Assembly (NCBI GenBank): GCA_020629755.1
Contig: JAHDCS010000024.1
Location: 2,314 to 35,445 of the forward strand
Source of the DNA: Flavobacteriales bacterium
Lineage (GTDB): Bacteria > Bacteroidota > Bacteroidia > Flavobacteriales_G > JALEGO01
DNA: 33,132 nt
Direction: 5' to 3'
The translations under genes and the position numbers were made by a program. The notes below the pieces were generated by a model. The model did not search any database. It saw only the letters and a list, made by a program, of their open reading frames with translations, and had not been told where the DNA came from. This document shows, piece by piece, positions 1,504 to 17,312 of the stretch. Numbering within the stretch: the first letter of the stretch is position 1; the number at the start of each line of letters is the position of its first letter.

Positions 1504-2313
1504 TTACCTGTTTTTGTAATATTGCATTGCTTCAGGTAAAAATTCTTGAATTCGTTTAATTCTTGTGTCATGTGAAGGATGAGTACTTAAAAATTCAGGT
1601 ACACCAGCGCCTCCTGTTTGAGACATTCTTTGCCAAAAATCAACCGATTTAGAAGGATCATATCCCGCCAATGCCATAAAGACCAATCCCATCTTATCCG
1701 CTTCAGATTCGTGATTTCTTGAAAATTTAAGAGTCCCTAAATTGGATGCCATCCCAAAGCTTTGTAGGAACAAATTTTGAGTTTGTTGAGGCTTACTGCT
1801 CATAGCTGCGCCTAAACCAACACCCGCTAATTGTGTAGCTAATCCAGTGCTCATTCTTTCGTTACCATGTCGGGCAATGGCATGGGCTATTTCGTGCCCA
1901 ATAACAGTAGCAAGTCCTTCATCGGTCTGAGCAACAGGAATCAATCCGGTATAGACCACAATTTTTCCGCCAGGCATACACCACGCATTTACAGCCGGAT
2001 CTTCAACAACATTGTATTCCCACTTGAAGTTTTTTATCTTTTTTTGCATGTGTTCCTTGACCATGAATTGCTCAACAGCGCCCTGTAGTTTTTTACAGAT
2101 ATTTATTACACGTTGTGCCTGTGGATCATTTGCAGGTAGCTTTTTATTTTCTTTTAAAAATTGATCATAGTTGGTTAAACTCATTCCAATCAGTTGTGTT
2201 TCAGGTAAAAGATTGATTTGCCTTCTGCCTGTAATAGGGACTTTATGACAAGAAATAACAGAGAGAATGAGTAATCCCCAAATAGTGAATTGATGTGTTC
2301 TTTTTATAAACAT
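1504..2313 (-). CDS. M48 family zinc metalloprotease, lipoprotein
   Basis: A 269-residue periplasmic M48 protease of the BepA/LoiP-like outer-membrane quality-control type. An N-terminal hydrophobic segment ends in a lipobox-like V-I-S-C with Cys22, so it is probably lipid-anchored. P-I-T-G-R-R-Q (26-32) is a typical post-signal motif. The zinc site is HEIAH at 140-144 with the third ligand Glu204 in N-H-E-S-E-A-D, and STHPSHDTRIKRI near the C-terminus matches the family. There are no TPRs, unlike full BepA. It starts 19 bp after the stop of the 1580-aa gene and ends the tpiA operon, but a TAAATTTG motif 4 nt before its ATG suggests its own promoter as well. Substrates are unknown; assembly or turnover of the neighbouring giant envelope proteins is possible. 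Confidence 0.93.
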   Translation of the reverse strand: MFIKRTHQFTIWGLLILSVISCHKVPITGRRQINLLPETQLIGMSLTNYDQFLKENKKLPANDPQAQRVINICKKLQGAVEQFMVKEHMQKKIKNFKWEYNVVEDPAVNAWCMPGGKIVVYTGLIPVAQTDEGLATVIGHEIAHAIARHGNERMSTGLATQLAGVGLGAAMSSKPQQTQNLFLQSFGMASNLGTLKFSRNHESEADKMGLVFMALAGYDPSKSVDFWQRMSQTGGAGVPEFLSTHPSHDTRIKRIQEFLPEAMQYYKNR

Positions 2314-2332: not shown

Positions 2333-5300
2333 TTATTCAGCAAGCACAATGCCATCCTTAACTTCTTGAACCTTTGGATCAATGGCATATGTTTCTTTGA
2401 GAATGTTTAATAAGTCATTGGCGCTTTGCGCATCTTTAAAGTTACCTGTCGAGTACACGTTAAATCCATTTTCATGTTTCAAAGAAAACACATTGTAGGT
2501 ACTATCAATAGAAGTAATCAAATCAAAATCTTCAAGGGGCACAAAATCATTTTGGGTGTAAATTACAATTGTATATCCGTTTACAGGGGCTGTTTCATTC
2601 GCTTTTGAAGACAAGTTTGTTTCATTAGATGTTGATGTATTTTCAGGCTGATTTGGAGCTGTAAAATCGTTTTTAACGTCTTGTTCAGCCTCTTCTAAGT
2701 CTTTAGCGAGAAGTGCAGCCATTGAAGGGTCAATCATTTCTTTTGCATCGGCGATCGTAATTTTTTCGCCCTGATGATACGCCACTACAAAGGCATCTGG
2801 GATATTATATTGCTCAGCTATGGCATTTCTTCTTGCAATAGCTTCATCCACATTTAAAAATACACCCGTTGTATATTTGACCCATCCACCTGATTTTAAA
2901 TCTGCTTTTAAAGGAGATATTGCCTGGAGTCTATTGTTTTTAGGCACGCCCCTGTAGGCTCCAACTTGAATCGTGAAATAGGGTTGATTTAATTTTTCTA
3001 TGTCTTTTATGGTCTGCGCCATTTTTTCATCTGCTTTATGATCTGTTTTTTGTGTGGGTTCATCTGAAGAGACTAAAGATGAATTGTTATCTATATTTTG
3101 CGTTGGTGCTGGTGTACTTATTTGAGAAGCATCAGGGCTCAATTTTTTTGCTTCTGATACAGACGTGCGGTTCGAATTATTGTAAGCAACCACAAAAGCA
3201 TCGGAGTACCCTAAAGCTCTAATTTTATTTTTTGCTTGATTAGCCGTTTCAAATTCAGTAAAAAAACCAGCCATGTATCGGGTTAAACCAGAAGGCGTTT
3301 GCTCTCCTGTTAAAGGATTAAATTCGGCAAATAAATCTTCAGGAATAGGGTTTCTAAATGCGCCAACTTGCACTTTGTAACTCACTCCTTTAGGAAGTGT
3401 TGGATTCATTTCAATGGTTCTCTTTGAAATGCTTTTTACAATTGTTAATCCTTCAACAATAGGGTTTGTTTTATCTTCTAAGTCAATTTCTGAAGGCTCT
3501 TCTAAAGCGCTCGAATCGGCACTGACAAGAGCCGTAGTATTGGTTTGAGTGTCTTTAGTGTACTGTTTAAAACTTGTTGTATAAGCTAAAAAATCTTTAG
3601 CAGTTTTAGCTTCTTTGTCTTGTAAAATGGAGGCATTTTGTGTCAATAATTCAAGACTCGTGGCGCTTAAGTCGTCAATTTCTTTTACTTTTTCTGGATC
3701 TTCACTATACGATACATTGGCCGATTTAATACTTTTGATCTTCTTTTTATTTTCTTCTATAGTCTTTAAGTTTTGGGCGTATTGATCGAAATCTGAATCT
3801 TCAGATAGTGTGTTGAATTCGTCTTGAGTGAGTCTGAGTTTAAGCGTATTTTCCTGCATTAAATCCTCCACAAAAACAGCGGTTTGCTTTTCTTCTAATG
3901 TTTTGATTTCATTGTAAAGTGTACTGAGTGTTTTTTGTTTTGAGAGATTGTAGTGCTGTGCAGCTTCAGTACTATCAAGTTTGTACTGCATTGCTTTTCG
4001 CTTCTTTTTTTTCATTTCAGAAATGTCTTGACTTAACTGTGCCGTTTGCAGAGAGTCATCAGAGATAGTATTGTTAAGTGCGTCGAGTTGTTTGAGAAGC
4101 GCATCGCTTTGAAACAGATTATCATAATCTTTAACATTAGCCTCTTTTATTTTTTTGGCCGCTTCTTTGGCAGAGGCAAGCGCATCTAATTCTCCCTGAA
4201 TGGCAGATGTTTCTTGAATAGCTTTAACTAATTCTTTCTCAATTTCTTTTCTTTTTTTCTTATTCTTTTCATTGGCTCTTTGGGTGGATAGTTCAGATTC
4301 TACTTGTTTTGAAGTGTCTAATTTTTTTGAGCTTTCAGTATGTTGATCTATAAGGGTAGTATTTGTGGTTTCAATATATTGATTGGTTTTTGATGGATTA
4401 GAGAGCGAGAGCGATTCATTAATGTCATTTTCGGCTGATGTAGTATTTGAATTTTCACTAATTATATCAGAGGCCTCTTCTTTTGGCAATTTTGATGCAC
4501 TAGTTAGCTCATTTAAAAAGGTTTGATTCAGCGTAAGTTGCCCCTTTAAATTATTAAGTTCAATTTGATTTTGTTCGCTTGAGGTAGAAGATTCATCAGC
4601 GCTTTCAGATTCAAGAGCGGCTATTTTGGCATCAATTTGACTGTTCCATTGTTCAAGTGTTGTTTTTTTTAGGGCATTATTTTCTGGGGTGTTGTCTAAA
4701 GTATTTAAACTATCTATTTGCTGGGCATAACCGTCTAACAAAGCCTGTTCTTTTAGCGCTATCTCTTCTTTATTTTTAGCATTTTGTGTTATGCTGTTTT
4801 CAGTGAGATTTTCGGTAGTCAATTCACTTTGGTCTTCTTTCTCAGATTGATCATTGGTGGGGAGCTCGACATTGTTTTGATTCTTAGAAGTTTGGGTCTC
4901 GCTATTATTAGTTTGTTCTTCTAATTCAATTTGCTCTTCTTTTGGGGGGATGATGTTATTTTCTGCTATTTGATTTTGTGTATCGTCAAGCGTAAGTTGG
5001 TCTAAAAAGGACTTCGCTTTATTTTGTTTCTCTTTTACTTTTGCAGACGCTTCTCGGTATGTGTTTAATTCTGTTTGTAGAGGAGGGATTTGAGTGTTGA
5101 TTTGCTCAATATCGTCTTTTAGAAGATGAATTTGATCGTGAATATCGTGTTGCTCTTTTTTCTTGGCTGTTTTTAGTTTGTCTTCTAGGGTGGATAAGTC
5201 ATCTTTTAAATTGGTTCTTTCAATTTCTAGAAGTTCTAATTTTTTGTAGACAGGCCCTGACTTTTCTTGAATTTCAGAAAGTTCATCCGTGTACAAAGTA

Positions 5301-7075
5301 AGGTGTGCGCCTTCTGGTTCAGTATCTAAAGCACTAATTTTATTTACGGTAGCATTGATGTCTTCTTGAGATGCTGCCTGGTTTATTTGAGAGGCGATTT
5401 GTTCGAATTGTTGTTTGATGTCTTGATGGTGTGCTTTCTTTTTTTGAAGTTCATTCAGTACTTCTTGTGTAAATGGATCGTTTTTTTCGGTGGCACTTAA
5501 AGATGAAATAGCAGCGATTCGAGAATTGATTTTTTCTATTTTTTCTTGTTCTTTATCAGCCATAGACAAAGCAAGTGTTTGGTGTTCATTGCTTTTTTCT
5601 TCTTGATCAGTCTCTTTTATAGCAGTATTATCTATTTGGCTTTGATTATCAATAGGCTGAATGTCTTGATAATTAACTTCAAGTGCTTCTTTTTGTTTTA
5701 AGAGTTGTGCTTTAATCGCCAGGTCTGATATAGAAGATTTTTCATTGAATTTGTTTATAATATCTAGAGACTCTTCTCCAGCAATGGCATCTAGATTTAA
5801 TTCTTGATTTAAGCTTACCAATTCTGTTTGGTAGGGGACTGTGATGGTTCCTTTATGTATGGACTCTGCTTTGTCTGATTCTATAAACACATCAAATGCT
5901 CCGCCATTGGGTATGGCATAGGCGTATTTCCCGGTCGATGAATCTACGGAGACGGATGCAATTACATCATCAGTGCCAGAGCGTTTGACAATAATCTTAG
6001 GGGATTTATCGATTTGAGAACTGTATGTCCCTTCAACAACAGTTTGTGTGATGGCAACTTTACCCACATCAATGGTGTACACATGACAATTGCCAAAATT
6101 GGCATTTCGAGTAGAGGCAAAAATAGCTTTGCTAAAATCTTCATTTGTCACATACATAAAATCATCCCCAGGTGAATTGATAGCAAAGTCGAGATTTTCA
6201 GGTGTAGACCAAGAATTATCATTGCTATTGTAAGTGGTTTTAAAAATATCATATCCCCCCATAGAGTTGTGGCCTTTTGAGGCAAAAAAAAGCGTGACCC
6301 CATCGGGGTGTAAAAACACAAAATCTTCATCAAATTCAGTATTGATATGACTTGGGAGTTTCACAGGATCAGAGAATTCACTGTTTTTCAACTTACTGAC
6401 ATAATAAATGTCTGTACTGTTTTCTGATTTGTCGCCATAGCTAGTAAAAAAAAGCTTCTGATACGAAGGATCTGAGTACATCAAAGGCTTGTAAGAGAGT
6501 TGTTTGTCTTTTTTACTCAGAAATAAAGGAGGTACTTTAATGACCTTTCCTTTTAACCCAATACTATGAAAGCTTCTATGAAAATCAGTACGTTTTATTT
6601 GCTTTTTATCGCGAACAGAAATATCTGTAATTTTTTGCAAAAGCGTTTGGCCGTTTTCACACATTTTTATTTCTTGACTTACGGGCAATTTTTTTCGCTT
6701 TTTACCAGTAGATTGATATTTTTTGTAATAGGTAATCGCGTCTTTAAATCTGTAATTTAAATGATAGGCCTTTGCTAAATAAAAGTATAAATCAGGGTCT
6801 GTACATCCCATATTTTGCGCTCTTTCTAAAAAAGTAAGAGGCTCTTCTTTATCTTCTTCTCCCATAAGCTTACTGGCCCCATATCTAAAGCAGTAATTGG
6901 CATTATCATTGTAATTGCTATAGAGTTTAGAGTAAAGGCTAATAGACTGAACAAAGTCATCACTTTCAAAGCTCTCTAGGGCTTCTTTGGCGAGTACTTC
7001 TTCTGAGAGTTGATCGCTTTGTGCGAGAAGCCATCCTCCCCATAAAAAGAAAAATATGCAAAGATTAATCTTCAT
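2333..7075 (-). CDS. Giant exported TPR / PD40 / coiled-coil / triple-SPOR protein
   Basis: A 1580-residue cell-envelope protein of unknown exact role. Residues 1-18 are a signal peptide. About 25-150 are TPR-like, with F-x-D-A-I-x-Y-Y-K-K-Y near 110-120. About 196-325 carry PD40/WD40-like beta-propeller repeats (L-F-F-T-S, L-F-F-A-S-K, A-I-F-A-S-T-R). About 345-430 look like a small carboxypeptidase-regulatory-like beta domain. About 430-1200 are low-complexity, Glu/Gln/Lys/Asn/Ser-rich and predicted coiled coil. Then come two related SPOR-like repeats (about 1230-1305 and 1365-1440, each with VQVGA[FY]R or IQVGA[FY]R and DAFVVAY) and a third, weaker one (1497-1578). SPOR domains typically bind denuded peptidoglycan. 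The N-terminus recalls PorE/OmpA-type Bacteroidota proteins, but there is no OmpA domain. Its start overlaps the preceding 1497-aa gene by 11 bp, so the two are co-translated neighbours. An envelope scaffold role is inferred. Confidence 0.85.
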   Translation of the reverse strand: MKINLCIFFFLWGGWLLAQSDQLSEEVLAKEALESFESDDFVQSISLYSKLYSNYNDNANYCFRYGASKLMGEEDKEEPLTFLERAQNMGCTDPDLYFYLAKAYHLNYRFKDAITYYKKYQSTGKKRKKLPVSQEIKMCENGQTLLQKITDISVRDKKQIKRTDFHRSFHSIGLKGKVIKVPPLFLSKKDKQLSYKPLMYSDPSYQKLFFTSYGDKSENSTDIYYVSKLKNSEFSDPVKLPSHINTEFDEDFVFLHPDGVTLFFASKGHNSMGGYDIFKTTYNSNDNSWSTPENLDFAINSPGDDFMYVTNEDFSKAIFASTRNANFGNCHVYTIDVGKVAITQTVVEGTYSSQIDKSPKIIVKRSGTDDVIASVSVDSSTGKYAYAIPNGGAFDVFIESDKAESIHKGTITVPYQTELVSLNQELNLDAIAGEESLDIINKFNEKSSISDLAIKAQLLKQKEALEVNYQDIQPIDNQSQIDNTAIKETDQEEKSNEHQTLALSMADKEQEKIEKINSRIAAISSLSATEKNDPFTQEVLNELQKKKAHHQDIKQQFEQIASQINQAASQEDINATVNKISALDTEPEGAHLTLYTDELSEIQEKSGPVYKKLELLEIERTNLKDDLSTLEDKLKTAKKKEQHDIHDQIHLLKDDIEQINTQIPPLQTELNTYREASAKVKEKQNKAKSFLDQLTLDDTQNQIAENNIIPPKEEQIELEEQTNNSETQTSKNQNNVELPTNDQSEKEDQSELTTENLTENSITQNAKNKEEIALKEQALLDGYAQQIDSLNTLDNTPENNALKKTTLEQWNSQIDAKIAALESESADESSTSSEQNQIELNNLKGQLTLNQTFLNELTSASKLPKEEASDIISENSNTTSAENDINESLSLSNPSKTNQYIETTNTTLIDQHTESSKKLDTSKQVESELSTQRANEKNKKKRKEIEKELVKAIQETSAIQGELDALASAKEAAKKIKEANVKDYDNLFQSDALLKQLDALNNTISDDSLQTAQLSQDISEMKKKKRKAMQYKLDSTEAAQHYNLSKQKTLSTLYNEIKTLEEKQTAVFVEDLMQENTLKLRLTQDEFNTLSEDSDFDQYAQNLKTIEENKKKIKSIKSANVSYSEDPEKVKEIDDLSATSLELLTQNASILQDKEAKTAKDFLAYTTSFKQYTKDTQTNTTALVSADSSALEEPSEIDLEDKTNPIVEGLTIVKSISKRTIEMNPTLPKGVSYKVQVGAFRNPIPEDLFAEFNPLTGEQTPSGLTRYMAGFFTEFETANQAKNKIRALGYSDAFVVAYNNSNRTSVSEAKKLSPDASQISTPAPTQNIDNNSSLVSSDEPTQKTDHKADEKMAQTIKDIEKLNQPYFTIQVGAYRGVPKNNRLQAISPLKADLKSGGWVKYTTGVFLNVDEAIARRNAIAEQYNIPDAFVVAYHQGEKITIADAKEMIDPSMAALLAKDLEEAEQDVKNDFTAPNQPENTSTSNETNLSSKANETAPVNGYTIVIYTQNDFVPLEDFDLITSIDSTYNVFSLKHENGFNVYSTGNFKDAQSANDLLNILKETYAIDPKVQEVKDGIVLAE

Positions 7076-10000
7076 TGGCCGCTTGCATTTTTCTTACAAA
7101 GTCTTTCTGTTTTTTAGGCGAAGAAAGCATGTATGAAAATGTTTTTCCTTTGTCGTATTTTGTTTTTCGTTTATCATTTTTTGTTCCCTTAATAATATCG
7201 TTAAATCCAGAATCAGACGAGAGTACTTGCAGAATTTGTCGGGTATAGTAAAAGAAATACCAAGTATAGTCATCAACCTGAATGTTCATGGCTAAAATAT
7301 CACCACTTCGTCTTTTGGTGATTTCTATATACCCTTCAAACTTTTTATTAATAGCATCGTTTTTACTGTTGCTAATGCTAATGGGACTGATAGATTGATA
7401 AGACCTGGTTTCGCCATTCCATTTAAATTTAACATCAGTTATAAAAAGTGATTTTTTAAGCTCGCTAGGCATTTTTTTAATGTGTCCGTGCAGGCTTAAA
7501 TCTGTAATGAGTTTATCGGCCTTTTCTTTGCCTACATACTCTTGAAGCCCGTGGTTGAATAGCTCTGTGTCAAAATCGATGCCTTCGGCAGTTGAGGCAA
7601 TCATAGCCTTTGTCATGTAATTCATGGCGTCTTCACTCATGAAAAAATCAAGGGTCATCATAGACTGCACAATGGCAGAGTCTGATTTTGTGTAGTAGTT
7701 GACATTTCCAACAGGGTTAAATTCAATGTTGCCAAAATCAACCCCATAGTTCATAGTACCTTCGGCATACATGTCGCAGGTTTCAGCATTTAATCGCACA
7801 TAATTGCCAGGTAAGCTCATCTCTTCTAGTTTGGCTAGATTAGAGATTTCAAAGGCATTATTGTCTTTGTTAAACCGCATAAATCCACTGGCATGAACAA
7901 GCTCATGATCTGAGTATTTTTTGGGGAGGGATGCAAAGCGCGGATAAAAATGCGCGGAATCGTTTTTGATCATCACACTCGCGGCAATGGGGTTTTTCTT
8001 TTCATTTCTAAGTACTGTATCTATAGGGATGTAAATATCATTCGGATCAATCTCACCTCTAAATCTAAACCAGTCTGCCGGAATCATCTCACACTGGTGG
8101 TTAAGCTGGGCATTACCGTTAAATGTTAAATGCTTTTTTGAACCATACAACTCAAGTTCGCCTTTAAAGTCATACAAGGGGCTGATGGTAAAACTGTCTT
8201 CTTCTTTAACTTCTGCTTTTCCAAAGGTTTGTTTTGAGGAGTCTACCACAATATCAGAGAACAAAACCTCTTGTTTGTCTCCGGTTTCATTGACATAATT
8301 GTATTTGCCAGATGCTGTGTAGTTGTAACGGCCTTTTACCTTTGTGGTAGCGTCAAATATTTCATGGTTTCGATCAGTACTATTGGCGACAATTTTAGAG
8401 TTTTTAAGCGGATCGATTCTGGCATCTTTTTTAATCGTAACATCTCCTGAATCTGGATATACAAGTGCATCTGCTACATAGATGTATTTTACCTTGGTAC
8501 AGTTTATAATGTTGTTTTTTACATCATAAATAGCACCTCCTGCGAAAAAACGTAAAGAGTCTTGATCGGGATGCACAGAGATAAATTCTGCCCCTTCTAA
8601 CGAAACACCTGTTTTTTCATCCTTCACTTTTGTGCTTGCAGAGAGCTCAATATCTTCACTTTCCATGTACCAGGTGAAGCGATCCATAAAGGCGATGTAT
8701 TTGTTTTTCGGAAAATCAACGAAGCTTCCGCCATCGTTGGCAATAAAATCGCCTTTCATGTCTTTAAAGGATACGTGTGCTTTTACGTTGTCTGTAGCAA
8801 AGGAGATTGCTTGCGCAGCTTCTTGCGCGTTTTCATTGGCAATATCATCCTTGAGTCTAAAGGCGGCTGTATCGGCATCAAATTCAATAAATTTAAACTT
8901 CATTAAGTTTGACTCCACTTCGGCTTTTTGAAAAGCTAACATCCCATCTCCTTCTAACCCAGTGGGTTTATTGGTTAGGGTACCTGTAAATTTAGACCCA
9001 TCATACATCGCAATTGGTTTTTTGCCACTTTCAACGTCCATGAAATCATCATAGGGTTCCCAATGCACATGTACGTCTTGGGCAAATACAGGCGGATATT
9101 CAGTGCCAGAAATTTGTTCTTCAATTTCGTAATTTTTAGCCAGTGTATTCATAGAATCCGGAAAGAATTTAAAGTCGTTAGATTCTATATTAGACGTAAT
9201 ATAGTTGAGAAGCCCATCCCCCCTTAAACCTCTATTACTCAAATTGATTTCTTTGTTATATGTGCCTTTGCCTTTATAACAAGGTAGGCCATTACCAGGT
9301 GTTTGTGTGCTGAAACCCAACGAAAGGTCATTCATTACCACCAGTTTTTCATCAATATCCGGGAAAATATCATAAGACACTAATGTACCCCCAAAATTTA
9401 AATTTTTAACCGTTAATTCATCTAAACTGTCGTACTCGTATGGATCAATTTCAAAATAGAATTTACTGCGATCATATACGCCATTAAAAATAGGTTTAGC
9501 GTCATAATACACATAAGAAGGTTGGGTGCTTTTAAATACGGGATATCGGGGCAAACTTTTAATGCCAGATTTATTGCCAGGGTTATCAATCAAAAGCTCT
9601 CCAGTAATATGTTCAATGGTTGATCTTACTTTAGATTCTATAGGCCTTAAATTTTCATCGTGTTCTCCTGTTTCTACATAGGTGTGCGCTGAATCTACTT
9701 TAGGCATGTCAATTTTGAAATTTTGATAATCAAAGGCATATTCTTTACCAAAGAATTCAAATCCGCCTGCGTTGACCACACCATTAAAGGTAAAGTCTCT
9801 ATTTTTCTTTAAGACTAATTTTTGATCTTTGGGGTACACATATACTTTTTGAGAATCGCTTAATATAACCATGTCGACCCCTTCCATTCTAATGTCATTA
9901 CTCAAAAGGTCAAGCTTACCATTGATGAGCCCTTCTTTGGTGGTTGAGCGAAACTGAATAATATCGTAATCTTCTTTTTTAGCGTTTGAAAGTACAAAAT

Positions 10001-11558
10001 GTTTTACTTTTCTCTTGACTTTTACCACATCACTCGCCACATCATATTCTACAAAACCTAGAGTAGAGAGTCTTAATAACATGCCTTTAACTTGTGATTT
10101 TGACATTTTCCAACATTTGGTTAAATCACCTAAGGTTAATTCAGTGGCGTCATTATGTTCTCTAGCACAGCGGTTAATCACATACAAAGGGCTTTGCGCG
10201 TCAATGCCCATTAAACGGTCAAAGTTAGCCTGGTTATAAAAATCATTCGATTCTAAAAGCATGTTACTGACTTCAGCACCTCTAATTGGACCTAGATCTA
10301 CGGTAGGAGTGCCAATAAACCAACTAAACTGATCGAAGTACATTTCTGTTTTATGATAAGTATTATAGAAAGGGGTTTTTTGGAGCCCGTCGCCAGAACG
10401 GGTTAAGGTTAAATGCCGTCCTTTAGATTGTATACTTAAGGTAATTTGTGGGTGAGTAATAGAGTCTTCCTCGCCAATATATATAGTGACAGCACTTTTC
10501 TGAGATTGAATATTTTCTGGCCGGATGATAAAAGCTTCTGCCTCTGCGATAATAAAAGGAGCGTTTTCTCTGTAGATGTATAAGGTAGCCATCTGTTCAG
10601 AATCGCCATAGCCTACCACACGTGACCCTTTTTGGGTAAAGCCACCATCAAAATCAACATCTTGAATGATATTGGGTATTTTAATCCGCTTATCATACGA
10701 TTTAAATTCTGGATAACTGGCATTTTTTGGTGTGACATTAGCCATTACCTTTTCTGTAATACGACCGTCTAAAGGCTTGTTAAACCAAAAGGTATTATAG
10801 AATTTAACGGAATCGGCAGTGAAGTTAGATTTTTTTGTATTAATAGTATACTTACTAAGTTCAGCACGTACCTCTTGTTGGGTAAACCCGGCACGTTGCC
10901 AGTATATTTCACCAATCTTTCCTTCAAATTTGTCTAAAGTAGGATAAAAAACACCCGAGGTGTGATGAATCACCGAGCTGTCGCCTTTGGCATAGCACTT
11001 TAAATCTAAAGACGGAAAAATAATAAAGGGCACATCGGCATATTCAAAAAAGTATTCATCAGTTTCGACTTTCCAGGTAACGGCATTCGATTTAAAAATG
11101 GCATTTTCTTCAAAAAAGTAGCTGCTAAATTTCAGATACCCCTCAAGCTTTTTTTTATGATTGCCATTGATTAGTTTTTCAAGGTTTAAAGCCCATGCAT
11201 CAAAACTGTCTTCGCTTTGTCCACTATGGTAAAAGCCAATAAGCGCCAATAAATAGTTTTGAAAAAATGGAAAAGGACTCATTTTTTTCTTGAGCATAAA
11301 ATTAGACACCTCATAGATTAATTCTCTCTGATGATCTGAATAAGCCCCGTGAAACCATGGTTCTTCGAATTTTTCTAAAAGTTTTTTTGCATCTTTTTCT
11401 CTATTAGGAGCATTTTTCATTAAGGTTTCAAGCTCTTTATAGAATGCAGCCGTATCTGAAGTAAATTTTTTTAATTGTGCTTGTGTACTAAATGTACAGC
11501 AAAAGAAAAAAAAGAAAAAGCCTAAGTATGTGTTTGTATTAGATGTAAACAGGCCCAT
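7065..11558 (-). CDS. Large exported protein of unknown function (1497 aa)
   Basis: I do not recognise a named family. The N-terminus is a signal peptide: a long Phe-rich stretch with C-C, then ...S-T-Q-A-Q near residue 28. The ATG lies inside prmA (37-bp overlap). Residues ~30-200 look helical. From ~200 on the protein is beta-rich with aromatic and acidic repeats. Similar segments recur, for example L-R-G-D-G-L-L near residue 777 and L-E-G-D-G-M-L near 867, each followed about ten residues later by E-S-N. Residues ~468-520 resemble a winged helix (L-T-L-G-D-L-T then S-Q-V-K-G-M-L-L-R-L-S-T-L-G-F-V-E-Y-D, then a wing-like V-V-K-V-K-R-K-V), which is odd in an exported protein. The C-terminus has a well-formed E-G-Y-I-E-I / T-W-Y-F-F-Y block. 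The gene is intact and in one operon with the 1580-aa gene. Surface or periplasmic structural role is inferred. Confidence 0.85.
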   Translation of the reverse strand: MGLFTSNTNTYLGFFFFFFCCTFSTQAQLKKFTSDTAAFYKELETLMKNAPNREKDAKKLLEKFEEPWFHGAYSDHQRELIYEVSNFMLKKKMSPFPFFQNYLLALIGFYHSGQSEDSFDAWALNLEKLINGNHKKKLEGYLKFSSYFFEENAIFKSNAVTWKVETDEYFFEYADVPFIIFPSLDLKCYAKGDSSVIHHTSGVFYPTLDKFEGKIGEIYWQRAGFTQQEVRAELSKYTINTKKSNFTADSVKFYNTFWFNKPLDGRITEKVMANVTPKNASYPEFKSYDKRIKIPNIIQDVDFDGGFTQKGSRVVGYGDSEQMATLYIYRENAPFIIAEAEAFIIRPENIQSQKSAVTIYIGEEDSITHPQITLSIQSKGRHLTLTRSGDGLQKTPFYNTYHKTEMYFDQFSWFIGTPTVDLGPIRGAEVSNMLLESNDFYNQANFDRLMGIDAQSPLYVINRCAREHNDATELTLGDLTKCWKMSKSQVKGMLLRLSTLGFVEYDVASDVVKVKRKVKHFVLSNAKKEDYDIIQFRSTTKEGLINGKLDLLSNDIRMEGVDMVILSDSQKVYVYPKDQKLVLKKNRDFTFNGVVNAGGFEFFGKEYAFDYQNFKIDMPKVDSAHTYVETGEHDENLRPIESKVRSTIEHITGELLIDNPGNKSGIKSLPRYPVFKSTQPSYVYYDAKPIFNGVYDRSKFYFEIDPYEYDSLDELTVKNLNFGGTLVSYDIFPDIDEKLVVMNDLSLGFSTQTPGNGLPCYKGKGTYNKEINLSNRGLRGDGLLNYITSNIESNDFKFFPDSMNTLAKNYEIEEQISGTEYPPVFAQDVHVHWEPYDDFMDVESGKKPIAMYDGSKFTGTLTNKPTGLEGDGMLAFQKAEVESNLMKFKFIEFDADTAAFRLKDDIANENAQEAAQAISFATDNVKAHVSFKDMKGDFIANDGGSFVDFPKNKYIAFMDRFTWYMESEDIELSASTKVKDEKTGVSLEGAEFISVHPDQDSLRFFAGGAIYDVKNNIINCTKVKYIYVADALVYPDSGDVTIKKDARIDPLKNSKIVANSTDRNHEIFDATTKVKGRYNYTASGKYNYVNETGDKQEVLFSDIVVDSSKQTFGKAEVKEEDSFTISPLYDFKGELELYGSKKHLTFNGNAQLNHQCEMIPADWFRFRGEIDPNDIYIPIDTVLRNEKKNPIAASVMIKNDSAHFYPRFASLPKKYSDHELVHASGFMRFNKDNNAFEISNLAKLEEMSLPGNYVRLNAETCDMYAEGTMNYGVDFGNIEFNPVGNVNYYTKSDSAIVQSMMTLDFFMSEDAMNYMTKAMIASTAEGIDFDTELFNHGLQEYVGKEKADKLITDLSLHGHIKKMPSELKKSLFITDVKFKWNGETRSYQSISPISISNSKNDAINKKFEGYIEITKRRSGDILAMNIQVDDYTWYFFYYTRQILQVLSSDSGFNDIIKGTKNDKRKTKYDKGKTFSYMLSSPKKQKDFVRKMQAANED

Positions 11559-12358
11559 GAATTTTCAGTGTTTTGGTTTTGAAATTTGAGACCGAATTGC
11601 TGAGCAAATACAAGAATGTCTTGGCAATCTTTTTCATAAAAGCCACTCAGTAATAAATGACCGCCTGTGGCTAATATGCTTTGGTAAGTCTCTATAAGTT
11701 CTAAATTACTATTTTTTGTGATATTCGAAAGAATAATATCATATTTCTTAGACCGGTCAATTTTTTCTTTACCGCCTTCAGTAGTGCTAAAGAGATGGCG
11801 ATGTAAATGATTTAATTCTATATTTTCAAGTGTATTTTGAATGGCCCAATTATCAATATCTATAAAATGGACGTCTTTAGCCTTTTTTTGTAGGCCCAGT
11901 ATGCCAAGCACACCAGTGCCGCAGCCCATATCAAGCACCAGTTTGTCAGCGCAATTAATCTGAAGAAGCGCGCGAATCATCAGCCGAGTGGTTTGATGAT
12001 GTCCAGTGCCAAAACTCATTTTAGGATTGATGATAATTTGATGGGGGATGTTTTTTTTGGGGGGATGAAAATCGCATCTAATATAACAGGAATTTTCAAT
12101 CAGAATAGGCTCAATGTGTTCTTCCCACTTTTTGTTCCAATTTTCTTTAGGATGCTCAATGATTTGATAAGGTTCTTGTATGTGAGAGGCTTTAATGAGC
12201 GATTTGAGATCTTCAATTAAGAAGTGTTCTTTGGGGATGTAAGCAGAGCATCCCTGATCCACCCTGAAACTATCAAAAGGAAGGCTGCTTAAAAGTGCCG
12301 TGATGATTTCACCGCGCGCCTCACTAATGTTTGGGAAATAGATTTCTATATAGGTCAT
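11522..12358 (-). CDS. prmA: Ribosomal protein L11 methyltransferase PrmA
   Basis: A 278-residue SAM-dependent enzyme that methylates amino groups of ribosomal protein L11. After a family-typical N-terminal domain (residues 1-95) come M-S-F-G-T-G-H-H-Q-T-T at 114-124, the PrmA signature, then SAM motif LDMGCGTG at 142-149, the acidic ribose-binding segment F-I-D-I-D near 165-169, and D-I-I-L-S-N-I near 210. It starts 9 bp after tpiA and its last 37 bp contain the start of the 1497-aa gene in another frame, so translation of the two is probably coupled. Overall similarity along the full length makes this secure. Confidence 0.95.
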   Translation of the reverse strand: MTYIEIYFPNISEARGEIITALLSSLPFDSFRVDQGCSAYIPKEHFLIEDLKSLIKASHIQEPYQIIEHPKENWNKKWEEHIEPILIENSCYIRCDFHPPKKNIPHQIIINPKMSFGTGHHQTTRLMIRALLQINCADKLVLDMGCGTGVLGILGLQKKAKDVHFIDIDNWAIQNTLENIELNHLHRHLFSTTEGGKEKIDRSKKYDIILSNITKNSNLELIETYQSILATGGHLLLSGFYEKDCQDILVFAQQFGLKFQNQNTENSWACLHLIQTHT

Positions 12359-12367
12359 TTATCGAAC

Positions 12368-13090
12368 TTAAACGGCATGAATAATGGAATGAAATGAATC
12401 ATATTGCAAAGAAGCCCCTCCAACCAATACACCATCTACATTTTTGGTCGATAAAATTTGGGTAGCATTTGAAGGCTTACAACTGCCGCCATAAAGGATT
12501 TTAAAAACATGATTTAAGTCTTCTTTGCAAACGTTTTTGATATGTGTATGGATCGCTTCGATTTGCTCAACTGTAGCGGTTTGGCCTGTGCCGATGGCCC
12601 AGATGGGTTCATAGGCTAAAATAATTTTATTATAATTTTGCGGATCAATGTCTTTAAGAACATCTAATACTTGTTCTTTCACAATGTTTTTTTCTTCTCC
12701 TTTTTTTCTTTGCTCTAAATCCTCCCCAAAACAAAATACAATATTTAGATTATGCGCCAGGGCTTGCTTGACTTTTAAGATTAAAGAGGCGTTTTTTTCA
12801 TTAAAATATTTCCGACGCTCAGAATGGCCTATTAATACATAGCTGGCCTTAGTCTGTGCAATCATTTTTGCCGACACTTCACCTGTGTAGGCGCCATTGT
12901 CAAAAGCGGCACAATTTTGTGCTCCAATAGCGATGTTTTTTGTAGAGTTAGTCATTTGATTTAACCACACAAAGGGCGGGAAGATAATAATTTCATGGGT
13001 AGATTTTATGGCATCTAATGCTTTGCAAAGCGTATGGCTCTCTTCAAGCGAAAGATTCATCTTCCAATTTCCGGCAATAATTTTTGGCAT
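12368..13090 (-). CDS. tpiA: Triosephosphate isomerase
   Basis: Interconverts dihydroxyacetone phosphate and glyceraldehyde 3-phosphate in glycolysis. The 240-residue TIM barrel begins with the N-W-K-M-N loop (catalytic Lys10). It contains the I-G-H-S-E-R-R motif with catalytic His89 and the Y-E-P-I-W-A-I-G-T-G segment with catalytic Glu161. The phosphate-binding Y-G-G-S and V-G-G-A-S loops follow near the C-terminus. It is slightly shorter than the common 250-255 residues but nothing essential is missing. It heads the minus-strand operon with prmA and the two giant envelope genes, and diverges from pseB across a 70-bp gap. Confidence 0.98.
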   Translation of the reverse strand: MPKIIAGNWKMNLSLEESHTLCKALDAIKSTHEIIIFPPFVWLNQMTNSTKNIAIGAQNCAAFDNGAYTGEVSAKMIAQTKASYVLIGHSERRKYFNEKNASLILKVKQALAHNLNIVFCFGEDLEQRKKGEEKNIVKEQVLDVLKDIDPQNYNKIILAYEPIWAIGTGQTATVEQIEAIHTHIKNVCKEDLNHVFKILYGGSCKPSNATQILSTKNVDGVLVGGASLQYDSFHSIIHAV

Positions 13091-13160: not shown

Positions 13161-14174
13161 ATGAGTTTGAATGGAAAATCTATATTGATTACGGGCGGAA
13201 CTGGATCGTTAGGTAAACAGCTTGTAAAAAGACTATATAAAGATTTTCCTGACATAGGGAGAATAGTTATCTATTCTAGAGATGAACAAAAGCAATTCCA
13301 AATGGCTCAATTATACCCTAAAGAGAAATACCCGCTCTTGCGTTTTTTCATTGGGGATGTTAGAGATAAAGAGCGTTTGATTAGAGCCATGCAAGGCGTC
13401 GATTATGTGATTCATGCAGCCGCTATGAAGCATGTGCATTTAGCAGAATATAACCCATCAGAATGTATTAAAACCAATGTGGGTGGGGCTGAAAATGTAA
13501 TACATGCTGCTTTAGAAACCGGTGTGCAAAGAGTGGTAGCGCTTTCTACCGATAAAGCCTGTGCGCCTATAAATTTATACGGGGCTACAAAGCTGACTTC
13601 GGATAAGCTTTTTGTGGCAGCAAACAACATAAAAGGAAAAAATCAAATAAGGTTTTCTGTGGTCCGTTACGGAAATGTGATGGGCTCTAATGGGTCAGTG
13701 GTGCCCTTTTTTATTAAAAAAAGAAAAGAAGGCGTGTTGCCGATTACACACGAAAAAATGACTCGGTTTAACATTTCACTTGATCAAGGAGTGGATATGG
13801 TTTTTCATGCTTTGCAAAGGGCTTGGGGAGGAGAGATATTTGTACCAAAAATACCTTCCTTTAAGCTTGTGGATTTAGCCAAAGCTGTTGCCCCTGAAGC
13901 CAAACTCAATATTATTGGGTTGAGGCCTGGAGAAAAAATTCATGAAGAAATGATTACGCCTTCTGACTCTTATAACACTTATGATTTAGGGGATTATTAT
14001 GTTATTCTGCCTATCAATCCGGTGTGGGATTTAGGTTCTTTTATCTCTGAACAAAAGGCGCAAAAGGTAAATGAGGGCTTTCATTACCAATCCGGAAAAA
14101 ATGAGGCATGGCTCTCACCAATTGAACTTAAAGAATTGGTCACTCATTTTGAAGAGAAAGAGTTGGTGAATTGA
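13161..14174 (+). CDS. pseB: UDP-N-acetylglucosamine 4,6-dehydratase (inverting), PseB type
   Basis: First enzyme of CMP-pseudaminic acid synthesis: dehydrates and C5-epimerises UDP-GlcNAc to the 4-keto-6-deoxy-L-arabino sugar. The 337-residue length is normal. It is a short-chain dehydrogenase with NADP-binding T-G-G-T-G-S-L-G at residues 11-18, the S-T-D-K-A segment at 129-133, and the catalytic Y140-x-x-x-K144 pair in L-Y-G-A-T-K. S-R-D-E-Q-K-Q near 39-45 and L-R-P-G-E-K-I-H-E-E near the C-terminus are family signatures. It opens the glycan operon and runs directly into pseF; the usual next gene, pseC, is missing. PseB rather than a CapD-type retaining dehydratase is supported by size and by pseF and pseI in the same operon. 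Confidence 0.93.
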   Translation: MSLNGKSILITGGTGSLGKQLVKRLYKDFPDIGRIVIYSRDEQKQFQMAQLYPKEKYPLLRFFIGDVRDKERLIRAMQGVDYVIHAAAMKHVHLAEYNPSECIKTNVGGAENVIHAALETGVQRVVALSTDKACAPINLYGATKLTSDKLFVAANNIKGKNQIRFSVVRYGNVMGSNGSVVPFFIKKRKEGVLPITHEKMTRFNISLDQGVDMVFHALQRAWGGEIFVPKIPSFKLVDLAKAVAPEAKLNIIGLRPGEKIHEEMITPSDSYNTYDLGDYYVILPINPVWDLGSFISEQKAQKVNEGFHYQSGKNEAWLSPIELKELVTHFEEKELVN

Positions 14175-14863
14175 TGAAAAACATTGCTATTATACCCGCT
14201 CGCGGCGGAAGCAAGCGCATCCCCAGAAAAAACATTAAAGCGTTTTTAGGCAAGCCGATTATTGCGTACTCAATTCAGGCAGCTTTAAATTCAAAACTTT
14301 TTGATAGGGTAATGGTTTCTACTGAGGATCAGGAAATTGCTCAGATATCCAAACAGTATGGGGCTGAAGTGCCCTTTATGCGTAGCGAAAAAACGGCAGA
14401 CGATTTTGCAACAACAGTAGAAGTTTTATTAGAAGTTATTTCTGAGTATAAGTCTAGAGGTGAAGAATTTGATGCTATTTGTTGCATTTACCCTTGTGCT
14501 CCGTTTGTAACACCTGATTTACTGCACAAAGGGCATAAAAAGTTAAAGGAATTTGATAGTGTTGTGCCGATTGTGCCTTTTGATTTTCCGATTCAAAGAG
14601 CTTTTAGGCTTGAAAATGAACGTGTGAGGTGTTTTTATCCAGAGCATGAAAAAACCAGAAGCCAAGATTTAGAAACCGCCTACCATGATGCCGGGCAATT
14701 TTATTGGATCAAGCAAAAGGTAGTGAGTGAGAAAAAAACATTAATCCCTCAATATACGGGCTTTGTAATTTTAGAATCAAATCTTGTGCAAGATATTGAT
14801 GTAATTGAAGATTGGGAATTAGCAGAATTAAAATATAGTACTTTTTGTAATCATGAACTATAG
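14174..14863 (+). CDS. pseF: Pseudaminic acid cytidylyltransferase
   Basis: Activates the nonulosonic acid with CTP to give the CMP-sugar. The nucleotide-binding start I-I-P-A-R-G-G-S-K-R-I-P-R-K-N is the hallmark of CMP-sugar synthetases, and C-C-I-Y-P-C-A-P-F near residues 107-115 plus D-A-G-Q-F-Y-W near 175-181 fit PseF more than NeuA. The chosen ATG shares one base with the pseB stop (TGATG); a TTG three bases earlier is also in frame. The last 11 bp overlap the next gene. Pse rather than sialic or legionaminic specificity rests on the partner genes pseB and pseI. Confidence 0.9.
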   Translation: MKNIAIIPARGGSKRIPRKNIKAFLGKPIIAYSIQAALNSKLFDRVMVSTEDQEIAQISKQYGAEVPFMRSEKTADDFATTVEVLLEVISEYKSRGEEFDAICCIYPCAPFVTPDLLHKGHKKLKEFDSVVPIVPFDFPIQRAFRLENERVRCFYPEHEKTRSQDLETAYHDAGQFYWIKQKVVSEKKTLIPQYTGFVILESNLVQDIDVIEDWELAELKYSTFCNHEL

Positions 14864-15743
14864 ATTATGCATTCTTGCTAGTGGAGGTCTTGGGTTTCTT
14901 TGTTTAGAGTGGCTAATTAATAATAACTATAAGATTTCTAAAGTTTTTACAGATAAGAGTTCAATTTCGATTTTAAGAATATGTAAAAAAAACGGAATTA
15001 GTACATATATTGGGAATCCAAGAAAAGAAAGAGCTTCCAATGAGGTAAAAAAGTTAGAGGTAGATGTGATTATTTCATTAAATTACCTTTATTTAATTCC
15101 TGAGACTTTAATTAAATCTGCGAAAATATGTGCTGTTAATTTTCATGGCTCACTTTTGCCTAAATATCGCGGAAGAACGCCACATGTTTGGGCTATTATT
15201 AACGGAGAAAAATATTCAGGAGTTACTGTACATCTTATTGAAAAAGAAGTTGATTCTGGGCCTATTATATGTCAAGAAAAGGTAGAGATTTATACCTATG
15301 ATACTGGAGCAAGTATTCTTAAAAAGTTTTCTGTATTATATCCAAAACTTTTAAAAAACCTTTTAGAAAAGCTCGTTTTAAAACCCATCGAGGGTTTTAA
15401 AGTACAAAATCACGAGAACGCAACTTATTTCGGAAAGCGAACACCTCAAGATGGATTGATTAATTGGTCATGGCACGCTAATAGGATTATTAACTGGATT
15501 AGAGCTCAATCGCCACCATATCCAGGTGCTTTTAGTTTTCTTGAAGGGTATAAAATTACATTTATATCTGCTGTAAAATCAAATATAGGCTTTGATAGCG
15601 ACATGCCAGATGGCACGATTTTGAAAAACTTACCTTTGGTAAATAAATTGTTTGTTAAATGCCCGAACCACGTACTTGAATTGAAGTATATTGATTTTGA
15701 TGAATCAAAGGAAATTCTTAAAGAAAAATTATTACTAAGGTGA
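14853..15743 (+). CDS. Sugar N-formyltransferase-like protein (methionyl-tRNA formyltransferase fold)
   Basis: A 296-residue N10-formyltetrahydrofolate-dependent formyltransferase-fold protein. The catalytic triad is visible: Asn96 and His98 in N-F-H-G-S-L-L-P-K-Y-R-G, and Asp134 in E-V-D-S-G-P-I. The C-terminal ~100 residues resemble the Fmt C-terminal domain. It sits between pseF and a GNAT gene, overlapping both, where pseG would be expected, so the substrate is probably an amino sugar on the way to a pseudaminic-acid derivative, with formyl in place of acetyl on one amino group. That is an inference; a housekeeping Fmt is unlikely given the operon and N-terminal divergence. It is more AT-rich than pseB. 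Confidence 0.82.
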   Translation: MNYRLCILASGGLGFLCLEWLINNNYKISKVFTDKSSISILRICKKNGISTYIGNPRKERASNEVKKLEVDVIISLNYLYLIPETLIKSAKICAVNFHGSLLPKYRGRTPHVWAIINGEKYSGVTVHLIEKEVDSGPIICQEKVEIYTYDTGASILKKFSVLYPKLLKNLLEKLVLKPIEGFKVQNHENATYFGKRTPQDGLINWSWHANRIINWIRAQSPPYPGAFSFLEGYKITFISAVKSNIGFDSDMPDGTILKNLPLVNKLFVKCPNHVLELKYIDFDESKEILKEKLLLR

Positions 15744-16318
15744 TTTTTCCTCTCAAATATAAAATTCTAAATCAAAGTTTAGTTGAAACAGGAAGCTATA
15801 AAATTTCTCCTCTCAGATATCAGGATAGGTATAAAATAATGAAATGGAGAAATGAGCAAATGTATCATTTAAGACAAAATGAGCTTTTGACTAAATCTAA
15901 TCAGGATAAATATTTTAAAGAAATTGTGCTTAAAACCTTTGATCAAGATAATCCTGATCAAATTCTTTTTTCATATTTAGAACAGGACAACTGTATTGGA
16001 TATGGTGGTTTAGTCCATATTAATTGGACAGATAAAAACGCTGAAATTTCTTTTATAATGGAAACTAAACTAGAAAATGATTTTTTTTCTTTTCATTGGA
16101 ATTGTTTCTTAAAAATGATACAAAGGGTAGCCTTTCAAGACTTGCAATTACATAAGGTTTTTATTTATGCTTTTGATGTTAGACCTCATCTCTATGATGC
16201 AATTAAAACTAGTGGTTTTTATAAAGAAGCAGTACTTAAAGAACATTGTCTATTTAATGAGAAATTTATTGATGTGGTGATTTCTTCTAAAATTAATAAT
16301 TATGCTTCAAAAAAATAA
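15740..16318 (+). CDS. GNAT-family acetyltransferase, possible PseH equivalent
   Basis: A 192-residue protein with a GNAT-like pattern: I-S-P-L-R-Y-Q-D-R-Y-K-I-M-K-W-R-N-E near residues 22-39, a central antiparallel sheet (C-I-G-Y-G-G-L-V-H-I), and a C-terminal L-H-K-V-F-I-Y-A-F-D region ending in a G-F-Y-K-E-A-V-L-K-E segment as in RimJ/RimL-type enzymes. In PseH-type enzymes the substrate is UDP-4-amino-4,6-dideoxy-beta-L-AltNAc. It starts at GTG 15740, overlapping the formyltransferase stop by 4 bp, and ends 17 bp inside pseI. The acetyl-CoA loop is not a strong consensus match, so PseH identity is contextual. With a formyltransferase beside it, one of the two may modify a different position. 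Confidence 0.72.
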   Translation: MIFPLKYKILNQSLVETGSYKISPLRYQDRYKIMKWRNEQMYHLRQNELLTKSNQDKYFKEIVLKTFDQDNPDQILFSYLEQDNCIGYGGLVHINWTDKNAEISFIMETKLENDFFSFHWNCFLKMIQRVAFQDLQLHKVFIYAFDVRPHLYDAIKTSGFYKEAVLKEHCLFNEKFIDVVISSKINNYASKK

Positions 16319-17312
16319 AGTTTATATTATTGCCGAACTCTCAGCCAATCACGGAGGTAAAATAGAGACGGCTATAAAAACGATTAAAGCGGCAAAAAAG
16401 GCGGGTGCTGATGCTATTAAATTACAAACGTATACGCCTGATACTATGACCCTAGATTCTCAGAGAGATGACTTCATGGTCAAAGGAGGCACTCTGTGGG
16501 ATGGGCAATCGCTTTATGATTTGTATAAAACAGCTTACACGCCTTGGGAGTGGCATGAGCAGCTGTTTGAAGAAGCTGAAAAAGAAGGTTTAATATGTTT
16601 TTCAACTCCTTTTGATAAAACGGCTGTTGACTTTTTAGATGAGCTCAATAACCCTATTTACAAAATAGCCTCCTTTGAAATTACAGATATCCCGCTTATT
16701 AAATATATAGCCTCTAAGCAAAAGCCTATTATTTTATCTACGGGTATCGCAGCGTATGATGATATTGATTTAGCCTTAAAGACCATTAGAGCAGAAGGTG
16801 TTACAGATATTACGCTGCTTAAATGTACCTCCGCGTATCCGGCCCCCATTAATGAAGCGAATTTGTGTATGCTAGACCAGTTTAAAAAAGATTTCAATGT
16901 AAAAGTTGGCTTGTCAGACCATACACTCGGTATTACTTTGCCAGTGGCCGCCACTGTTCTTGGGGCCCAGGTCATTGAAAAGCATTTTATTTTAGATAAA
17001 TCAATTGGCGGCCCTGATGCCGAATTTTCTTTAGACCAGAATGAATTTACACAGATGGTTAAAGCTGTAAGAGAAGCAGAGTCGTGCATTGGCCAACCTT
17101 CTTATGAATTGACAGACAAACAAAAAAAAGGCAAACAATTTTCAAGAAGTTTATACATTGCAAAAGATATTCAAAAAGGAGAGGCGTTTACTGAAAAAAA
17201 TATTCGAAGTGTTCGTCCAGGGTTTGGCACACATCCTAAACATTTAGACAAAATTTTAGGCACTAAAGCGCAAAAAGATTGGAAATTCGGCGATCGTTAT
17301 ACATTCGAATAA
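16302..17312 (+). CDS. pseI: Pseudaminic acid synthase
   Basis: Condenses the 6-deoxy-AltdiNAc sugar with phosphoenolpyruvate to make pseudaminic acid. This 336-residue NeuB-family protein opens with I-A-E-L-S-A-N-H-G-G, and the segment G-G-T-L-W-D-G-Q-S-L-Y-D-L-Y around residues 62-75 followed by T-P-W-E-W-H is specific to PseI rather than NeuB/LegI. S-F-E-I-T-D, L-L-K-C-T-S-A-Y-P, G-L-S-D-H-T and I-E-K-H-F-I-L-D are the barrel motifs. The last ~55 residues form an antifreeze-like SAF domain (S-R-S-L-Y-I-A...R-P-G-F-G). It starts inside the GNAT gene and closes the five-gene operon; the hairpin element begins 7 bp after its stop. Confidence 0.95.
   Translation: MLQKNKVYIIAELSANHGGKIETAIKTIKAAKKAGADAIKLQTYTPDTMTLDSQRDDFMVKGGTLWDGQSLYDLYKTAYTPWEWHEQLFEEAEKEGLICFSTPFDKTAVDFLDELNNPIYKIASFEITDIPLIKYIASKQKPIILSTGIAAYDDIDLALKTIRAEGVTDITLLKCTSAYPAPINEANLCMLDQFKKDFNVKVGLSDHTLGITLPVAATVLGAQVIEKHFILDKSIGGPDAEFSLDQNEFTQMVKAVREAESCIGQPSYELTDKQKKGKQFSRSLYIAKDIQKGEAFTEKNIRSVRPGFGTHPKHLDKILGTKAQKDWKFGDRYTFE

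Follow-up and report, generated by a model that had tools for sequence, protein, structure and literature searches.

A giant exported Bacteroidota protein with predicted Lpt-type jellyrolls and its SPOR-domain gene neighbor: a possible periplasmic lipid bridge

Introduction

In the Lpt bridge, LptC, LptA and the N-terminal domain of LptD contribute separate jellyrolls of 16 strands each, which join head to tail, and lipid A is shielded in the groove of the resulting chain, as set out in passages of PMC6164715. Borrelia is without LPS, and an excerpt of PMC10353723 proposes from modeling that its Lpt system carries glycolipids; hence the Lpt fold need not mean LPS. Among other proposed lipid transporters, the AsmA-type protein YhdP of E. 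coli co-purifies with DedD, a cell-wall-binding division protein, according to a passage of PMC12977461, and DedD carries a SPOR domain, as stated in part of PMC7642682. A further wall-binding protein, PorE, is a lipoprotein of the periplasm associated with the outer membrane, whose C-domain binds peptidoglycan and whose N-terminal order is TPR, propeller and CRD, in the portions of PMC5053529 and PMC7192894 that describe it (the N-terminal order being from the former). Neither the route of non-LPS lipids to the outer membrane nor its link to cell division is settled. The preferred target of SPOR domains is denuded septal glycan, and AsmA-type proteins are elongated, beta-rich and of a size similar to that of one of the two proteins described here.

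We analyzed a window of 33,132 nucleotides (the whole stretch of DNA under study) from contig JAHDCS010000024.1, in which two giant proteins of 1497 and 1580 aa, designated BIG and TPS, are encoded back to back next to an M48 protease gene. An earlier note, made from the letters of this window, had taken the two giants to be co-translated envelope proteins, perhaps forming a scaffold between peptidoglycan and outer membrane with the protease as an assembly or quality-control factor.

Results

Gene order in the window

The source genome comprises 2.36 Mb in 92 contigs and belongs to a little-known group of Bacteroidota. According to ORF calls and Pfam and NCBIfam searches in the window, the minus strand carries, in this order, tpiA, prmA, BIG, TPS and the M48 protease gene, followed by tRNA-Arg (Table 1); tpiA and prmA, which lie upstream of BIG in the same direction, are additions to the earlier gene list. 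The 11-bp overlap between BIG and TPS that had been described before was borne out by the ORFs and recurs identically in the nearest relative (L041), and the frames called for prmA and BIG share 37 bp. In many relatives, plsY lies between BIG and TPS and clpS precedes the M48 gene (both identities are presumed, the genes having been named by eye from their sequences without a family search), and the fullest gene order seen was tpiA-prmA-BIG-(plsY)-TPS-(clpS)-M48. In most loci, the neighborhood of BIG consists of tpiA, prmA and plsY.

Table 1. Features of the BIG-TPS locus, with positions in the window.
Feature	Position	Strand	Basis or best match
tpiA, frequent neighbor upstream	12368..13090	-	Pfam/NCBIfam
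prmA, conserved neighbor upstream of BIG	11522..12358	-	Pfam/NCBIfam
BIG, 1497-aa exported protein	7065..11558	-	ORF; fold from AF2 models
BIG signal-peptide-like start (about aa 1-28)	11475..11558	-	sequence
BIG predicted all-helical N-domain (about aa 36-152)	11103..11453	-	AF2 model
BIG jellyroll-like stretch, aa 160-290	10689..11081	-	LptC 4b54_A, Z 8.9, 116 aligned, rmsd 3.4
BIG jellyroll-like stretch, aa 284-439	10242..10709	-	fold matches to LptA and LptC chains
BIG predicted embedded winged helix, aa 441-529, MarR/Rio2-like fold	9972..10238	-	1zar, Z 9.2, 85 aligned, rmsd 2.8
BIG jellyroll-like stretch, aa 532-742	9333..9965	-	fold matches to LptD N-domain and LptC
BIG jellyroll-like stretch, about aa 821-1049	8412..9098	-	LptD N-domain 9rps_A, Z 10.3, 152 aligned, rmsd 3.1
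TPS, 1580-aa exported TPR / propeller / CRD-like / coil-like E,K,L,S,Q-rich / SPOR protein	2333..7075	-	ORF, Pfam, NCBIfam, family alignment
TPS TPR match, aa 94-121, sub-threshold	6713..6796	-	Pfam
TPS propeller and next domain, aa 203-390, PorE/CHU_0125-like	5906..6469	-	75-80 bits, curated cut-offs 600-620; PD40 Pfam
TPS SPOR copy 1, aa 1232-1296	3188..3382	-	Pfam, 31.3 bits
TPS SPOR-like copy 2, aa 1366-1431, sub-threshold	2783..2980	-	15.2 bits
TPS C-terminal SPOR-like copy 3, about aa 1501-1580	2336..2575	-	family alignment
M48 lipoprotein-like protease, probably a housekeeping neighbor	1504..2313	-	Pfam

Sequence and predicted structure of BIG

Both giants begin with a hydrophobic N-terminal stretch, in keeping with the earlier view that they are exported. 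By a simple pattern, which is not a signal-peptide predictor, an AxA-Q-like site was found at the start of 37 of 73 BIG sequences and a lipobox-like motif in one, and BIG has no evident membrane anchor. Among these 73 rows, which are close relatives, the length of BIG is nearly constant (1465-1534 aa, sd 13.6), and three distant relatives are longer (1561, 1590, and 1857 aa). Eight of 80 named loci had been dropped from the set, five being cut at contig ends, one broken (L087) and two interrupted by unknown residues (L081, 1565 aa; L104, 1513 aa). BIG was also found in contigs labeled Competibacteraceae and Chlorobiota (L136, L139); both are placed among Bacteroidota rows in the BIG tree and are therefore likely to be mislabeled MAGs.

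By sequence, BIG has no usable relative in Pfam, NCBIfam, or the PDB. OstA, OstA_2 and LptC were not among the Pfam families listed at E <= 0.1 for 17 BIG members, comparison with four OstA_2 proteins gave no sequence kinship (best hhalign E 0.1), and neither the window protein nor the family members matched TamB or AsmA in Pfam. Matches to Mago nashi, IclR and MarR were sub-threshold and were set aside, and a winged helix was later seen by fold. Within BIG, aa 755-906 and 846-1017 form an internal sequence repeat (E 6e-5). The earlier description of BIG as beta-rich and unrecognized thus holds at the level of sequence, and the fold can now be recognized in the model.

AlphaFold2 models built from an alignment of 55 sequences were confident for aa 25-812 (mean pLDDT 92.3, pTM 0.76) and for aa 525-1497 (mean pLDDT 89.7, pTM 0.57), and the strands in their overlap largely agree. 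In these predicted models, an OstA-like beta-jellyroll fold was found in four stretches with Z-scores of 8.9-11.3, values of 8-11 being modest given that VIA-align puts the usual best Z at 7-8 where a model lacks a clear match. The stretch at aa 284-439 was matched by LptA 2r1a_C (aa 296-439, Z 9.1, 122 aligned, rmsd 3.5) and by the LptC chain 6mjp_C (aa 284-423, Z 8.4, 124 aligned, rmsd 2.9), and aa 532-742 by the N-domain of LptD 9rps_A (aa 533-742, Z 10.1, 148 aligned, rmsd 3.9) and by LptC 3my2 (aa 532-687, Z 8.3). For about aa 821-1049, the best row was a computed LptD model, 9a39 (Z 11.3), followed among others by LptC 6mjp_C (Z 9.7) and LptA 2r1a_A (Z 9.0). Residues 742-821 and 1049-1497 lie outside the separately matched stretches. 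Taken by model, three stretches of the N-part match Lpt chains (Z 8.9, 9.1, and 10.1), and the top 20 VIA-align rows for the C-part are all LptA, LptC, LptD or LptH chains (Z 7.7-11.3, two with rmsd > 14), the first non-Lpt row having a Z of 7.1.

Foldseek returned 10 matches at E <= 0.001 for the C-part, of which eight are LptD chains (counting 4q35, which we take to be LptD) and two are teneurin-3, the best of all (1.6e-5), and ApoB100; LptA chains reached a prob of 1.00 and a TMt of 0.65, and LptC a TMt of 0.70. For the N-part, there was no Foldseek match at E <= 0.001; LptD leads that list (3.6e-3, with a prob of only 0.08), and LptA reached a prob of 0.91. TM-scores are low for the whole BIG models. 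The fold matches listed for BIG include no solved TamB-type or AsmA-type chains, an observation that excludes nothing.

Between aa 150 and 1310, BIG has 88 strands, short ones and a few of the winged helix included, which at 16 strands per Lpt jellyroll amounts to about five to six jellyroll units. Residue alternation along 47 strands scored 1.90, against a mean of 1.35 and a maximum of 1.82 in 1000 shufflings, a result that fits any amphipathic sheet. BIG is accordingly predicted to be a single chain with an embedded winged helix and enough strands for about five to six Lpt-type jellyrolls. This fold identity, as read from the models, is what is new here; a shared fold by itself proves no function. 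The winged helix is of a DNA-binding type, sits inside an exported protein, and aligns at aa 441-529 in distant relatives too; presumably it is a protein-contact module.

Domains and length of TPS

The earlier note had assigned TPR, PD40 and SPOR domains to TPS. In the window protein, SPOR (31.3 bits vs. a gathering score of 21) and PD40 (24 bits vs. 20.9) exceed their Pfam cut-offs, as had been claimed, and TPR stays below its own (18.3 bits vs. 27) and is seen in relatives. At E <= 0.01, Pfam matches among 18 TPS members were to SPOR in 15, PD40 in 13, TPR_16 in eight and CRD in one. The third, C-terminal SPOR-like copy of the window protein had no Pfam SPOR match, the best match there being a sub-threshold one to FecR_C (14.6 bits), and the Salibacter homologue (L153) has a SPOR match (E 1.8e-10) ending near its C-terminus. 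The PorE model matches aa 203-390 with 75 bits against a cut-off of 600, and the Pfam lists contain no OmpA match; by the cut-off of that model, TPS is not a PorE.

By the same simple start pattern, 26 of 55 TPS rows (duplicates included) have an AxA-Q-like site and none has a lipobox-like motif. Unlike BIG, TPS varies by hundreds of residues in length (1482-2405 aa, sd 195, n = 25, with rows < 1400 aa, cut rows and L112 left out). It contains a long variable region of about 770 residues that is coil-like and rich in E, K, L, S, and Q. In L112 and in one genome (G195), TPS occupies more than one frame, which could reflect a frameshift, an assembly error or a real split.

Linkage of BIG and TPS across genomes

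Of the 42 order genomes, 39 gave a BIG match (27 of the 28 good ones), compared with 6 of 148 genomes in the phylum sample. TPS follows BIG in 32 of 33 order loci, window included, the contig ending in the remaining one; prmA precedes BIG in all 33, and plsY was seen in 24. In order loci, the pairing of BIG with TPS is beyond chance. When the best 80 of 117 BIG loci from a broader contig set were read, TPS followed BIG in 31, the contig ended in 10 and TPS did not follow in 39, with prmA preceding BIG in 57. Most named loci are MAGs, and for 23 of the 32 fetched order loci the same BIG also appears in the 80-locus set, so the two counts are not independent. The five BIG loci of the phylum sample that lie outside the order are without an adjacent TPS. 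In a quick tree of 78 BIG rows, TPS adjacency is clustered: the clade that holds the window shows it in 25 of 26 rows and a second subclade in 6 of 7, with the leftover row in each clade scored neither yes nor no.

For a genome-wide search for TPS, 22 genomes were chosen, 17 via loci and five from the phylum sample. Twelve of them (G045, G194-G201, G203-G205) contain a strong match (E <= 4.3e-54), and among these TPS adjoins BIG only in G199, G200, and G201; the copy in G195 is the one in several frames. Put differently, a strong TPS is present in 9 of the 19 chosen genomes in which it does not adjoin BIG. The other ten (G037, G049, G072, G146, G189-G193, and G202, with G189-G193 being Carboxylicivirga/Marinilabiliaceae) gave no match better than E 5e-37, and what aligned there was the TPR/propeller part, in smaller frames. 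BIG therewith occurs without a strong TPS in Carboxylicivirga/Marinilabiliaceae and in genomes of three further families (f6, f9, and f10). The TPR/propeller proteins of Carboxylicivirga, 820-830 aa long with E down to 5e-37 to TPS, are candidates for a short TPS or a PorE-like protein.

In the phylum sample, TPS at E <= 1e-40 was found in 2 of 148 genomes, both BIG-positive, and in none of the 142 BIG-negative genomes, three candidates having been scored per genome at a threshold that weaker TPS would escape. In the three BIG-negative genomes of the order (G148, G168, and G172; 82, 82, and 92% complete), TPS matches do not go below an E of 6.5e-36; a C-terminal piece of TPS stands beside the M48 gene of G172, whose assembly is therefore likely to be broken at this point. 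Collectively, these data indicate that a strong TPS goes with BIG, but that BIG does not need TPS. The proposal that the two giants work together is strengthened by their adjacency in the order, by the strong TPS in 9 of the 19 non-adjacent genomes and by the BIG-negative phylum genomes, and qualified by the neighborhood survey, in which homologues were found apart in several families.

Lpt, TamB and M48 genes

Genomes of the order contain LptC (41 of 42), OstA_2 (39 of 42) and TamB (35 of 42) families, and the window's own genome has a separate TamB. BIG thus looks like an extra system with no transport gap to fill, and BIG as a replacement for a missing LptA/LptC or TamB was ruled out. In the genomes searched, BIG is not directly beside lpt or tam genes. 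The nearest OstA_2 genes lie 34-44 kb away (G149, G164, G165, and G174), and LptC, OstA_2 and TamB are otherwise farther off or on other contigs. All four genomes of one genus of the order (g100; G185-G188, loci L070, L067, L068, and L071) have a gene of the TamB family, with frames of 1491-1494 aa, at a distance of 7-10 kb from BIG. No lipid transporter or outer-membrane barrel was seen beside BIG in the loci viewed.

The M48 gene of the window exceeds the Peptidase_M48 gathering score (130.9 bits vs. 20.3, Pfam). By manual reading of the 42 order genomes, a close relative (E <= 1e-60) adjoins a TPS match in 27, lies elsewhere in eight and was not found in seven. Eleven of the 15 genomes without M48 at TPS are clear cases; in the other four, TPS is cut by a contig end (G151, G152) or a strong TPS is lacking (G148, G168). 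Close M48 relatives also occur in 17 of 60 phylum genomes, 14 of which are not BIG-positive, with M48 beside plsY in three of the 14. These figures rule out M48 as a part of the BIG-TPS module and speak against its suggested role as an assembly or quality-control factor; the gene is probably a housekeeping neighbor. It resembles BepA and LoiP in its M48 domain and lipoprotein-like start, but falls far below their cut-offs (570 and 365), and its close relatives are common without BIG. Among 30 M48 loci with 1.5-kb flanks, plsY was beside M48 in three and clpS in one; at L163, L164, and L174, all from genomes outside the BIG-positive set, plsY adjoins the gene for the M48 lipoprotein. The plsY-M48 pair may be an older housekeeping neighborhood into which BIG and TPS were inserted.

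Discussion

The gene order, co-occurrence and domain content computed for BIG and TPS, together with the confident models and fold match of BIG, lead us to favor, tentatively and at slightly less than even odds, a periplasmic lipid bridge in which BIG is a lipid-carrying jellyroll chain and TPS its wall-binding partner, resembling YhdP and DedD. BIG would be exported, probably to the periplasm, and consist of a helical head, jellyrolls and the embedded winged helix. We infer from its predicted fold that part of a hydrophobic groove is most likely formed by it, in which an amphipathic lipid (a lipid A-type glycolipid, a phospholipid or a sulfonolipid) would be carried across part of the periplasm, as in the LptC-LptA-LptD chain or by AsmA-type proteins. 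The PorE-like TPR/propeller head of TPS could hold BIG, in physical contact with it, or an outer-membrane complex; beyond the long variable coil-like region, the SPOR domains would attach to peptidoglycan, their target perhaps being denuded glycan where the cell divides. The pair would then be a YhdP-DedD-like combination of lipid bridge and wall binder within one gene cluster, with the M48 protease, PlsY, ClpS, PrmA and TpiA as probable neighbors rather than parts. As for the envelope scaffold proposed in the earlier note, a wall tether fits TPS with its SPOR domain, and a scaffold is only one option for BIG, whose predicted fold is that of LPS-transport jellyrolls.

BIG differs from each of the described systems. 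It shares the OstA-like jellyroll, in several predicted stretches, and export with the Lpt bridge, but the latter consists of separate domains, whereas BIG is one chain of 1497 aa with about 88 core strands, to which a helical head and a winged helix are added, and has neither a Pfam match nor, in the genomes searched, a place beside lpt genes. In size and in its elongated, beta-rich kind, BIG is like YhdP, TamB, and YdbH of the AsmA superfamily, and DedD, the partner of YhdP, is a SPOR wall binder as TPS would be; yet BIG lacks a TamB/AsmA Pfam match and starts like a protein with a signal peptide. DedD is much smaller than TPS, which also has TPR and propeller domains and whose contact with BIG is presumed. 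With PorE (PG1058), TPS appears to share the N-terminal order of TPR and propeller, a CRD in one member and a wall-binding type of C-terminus, but it carries SPOR instead of an OmpA-like domain, the variable region, and no lipobox-like start.

BIG might instead be a purely structural rod, a stiff jellyroll stack that spaces the outer membrane from the peptidoglycan, with TPS as wall anchor and no lipid carried. The near-constant length of BIG in 73 rows is explained equally well by a rod, TPS has both SPOR and a PorE-like head, and no lipid transporter was seen beside BIG. The best fold matches, however, are lipid-carrying Lpt jellyrolls and not other rods in the searched library, even though teneurin heads one Foldseek list, and we regard a rod as somewhat unlikely. 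That BIG serves this lineage's canonical machinery for Lpt, TAM or outer-membrane-protein assembly as an accessory, for example by docking to LptD or delivering a second kind of glycolipid to it, appears decidedly improbable. Lpt jellyrolls do join head to tail (PMC6164715, in the passages cited above), LptC, OstA_2 and TamB genes occur in most of the same genomes, and TamB and OstA_2 lie within kilobases to tens of kilobases of BIG in four genomes each; against this, BIG adjoined none of the lpt or tam genes, which in the order lists otherwise stood at greater distances or on separate contigs, and it has no match in 142 of 148 phylum genomes.

A place for the pair in type IX secretion or gliding, with TPS as a PorE paralogue in which SPOR replaces OmpA, is suggested by the N-terminus of TPS, which is like that of PorE as described in part of PMC5053529. 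The PorE match is a small fraction of its cut-off, none of the 26 window proteins scanned with Pfam looks like a type IX secretion or gliding component, TPS apart, and the same genomes contain many other TPR/propeller matches, all of which make this explanation very improbable in our estimation. The lipid bridge remains the reading that we prefer. A broader form of it, which we offer as speculation and consider unlikely as a whole, is that Bacteroidota possess, in addition to Lpt and TamB, another lipid carrier that crosses the envelope, a bridge of near-fixed length built from multiple jellyrolls in a single chain, which is held to the wall by a SPOR partner, probably at the division site, and delivers lipid to the outer membrane where the cell divides.

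The literature searched, with preprints and most subscription papers outside its scope, yielded nothing describing a BIG-like protein, which leaves such an absence unproven. For a family of 1500 residues that is unnamed in the Pfam and NCBIfam copies searched, the present analysis offers a predicted fold and a function that can be tested. Almost every genome sampled from the order has this family, and most of them have Lpt and TamB genes as well. If the bridge is real, a near-constant-length Lpt-type jellyroll chain with a wall-binding partner would offer a natural test case in cultured species, namely Salibacter halophilus for the BIG-TPS pair and Carboxylicivirga for BIG without a strong TPS match.

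Apart from these genes, the plus strand of the window carries an apparent surface-glycan cluster. It includes a gene for a 490-aa protein without a Pfam match at E <= 0.001 (18488-19960). At 13161-17312, epimerase/dehydratase, cytidylyltransferase, formyltransferase, acetyltransferase and NeuB genes for polysaccharide synthesis stand in series and look like a pathway that makes a nonulosonic acid (sialic/legionaminic/pseudaminic-type) for a surface glycan.
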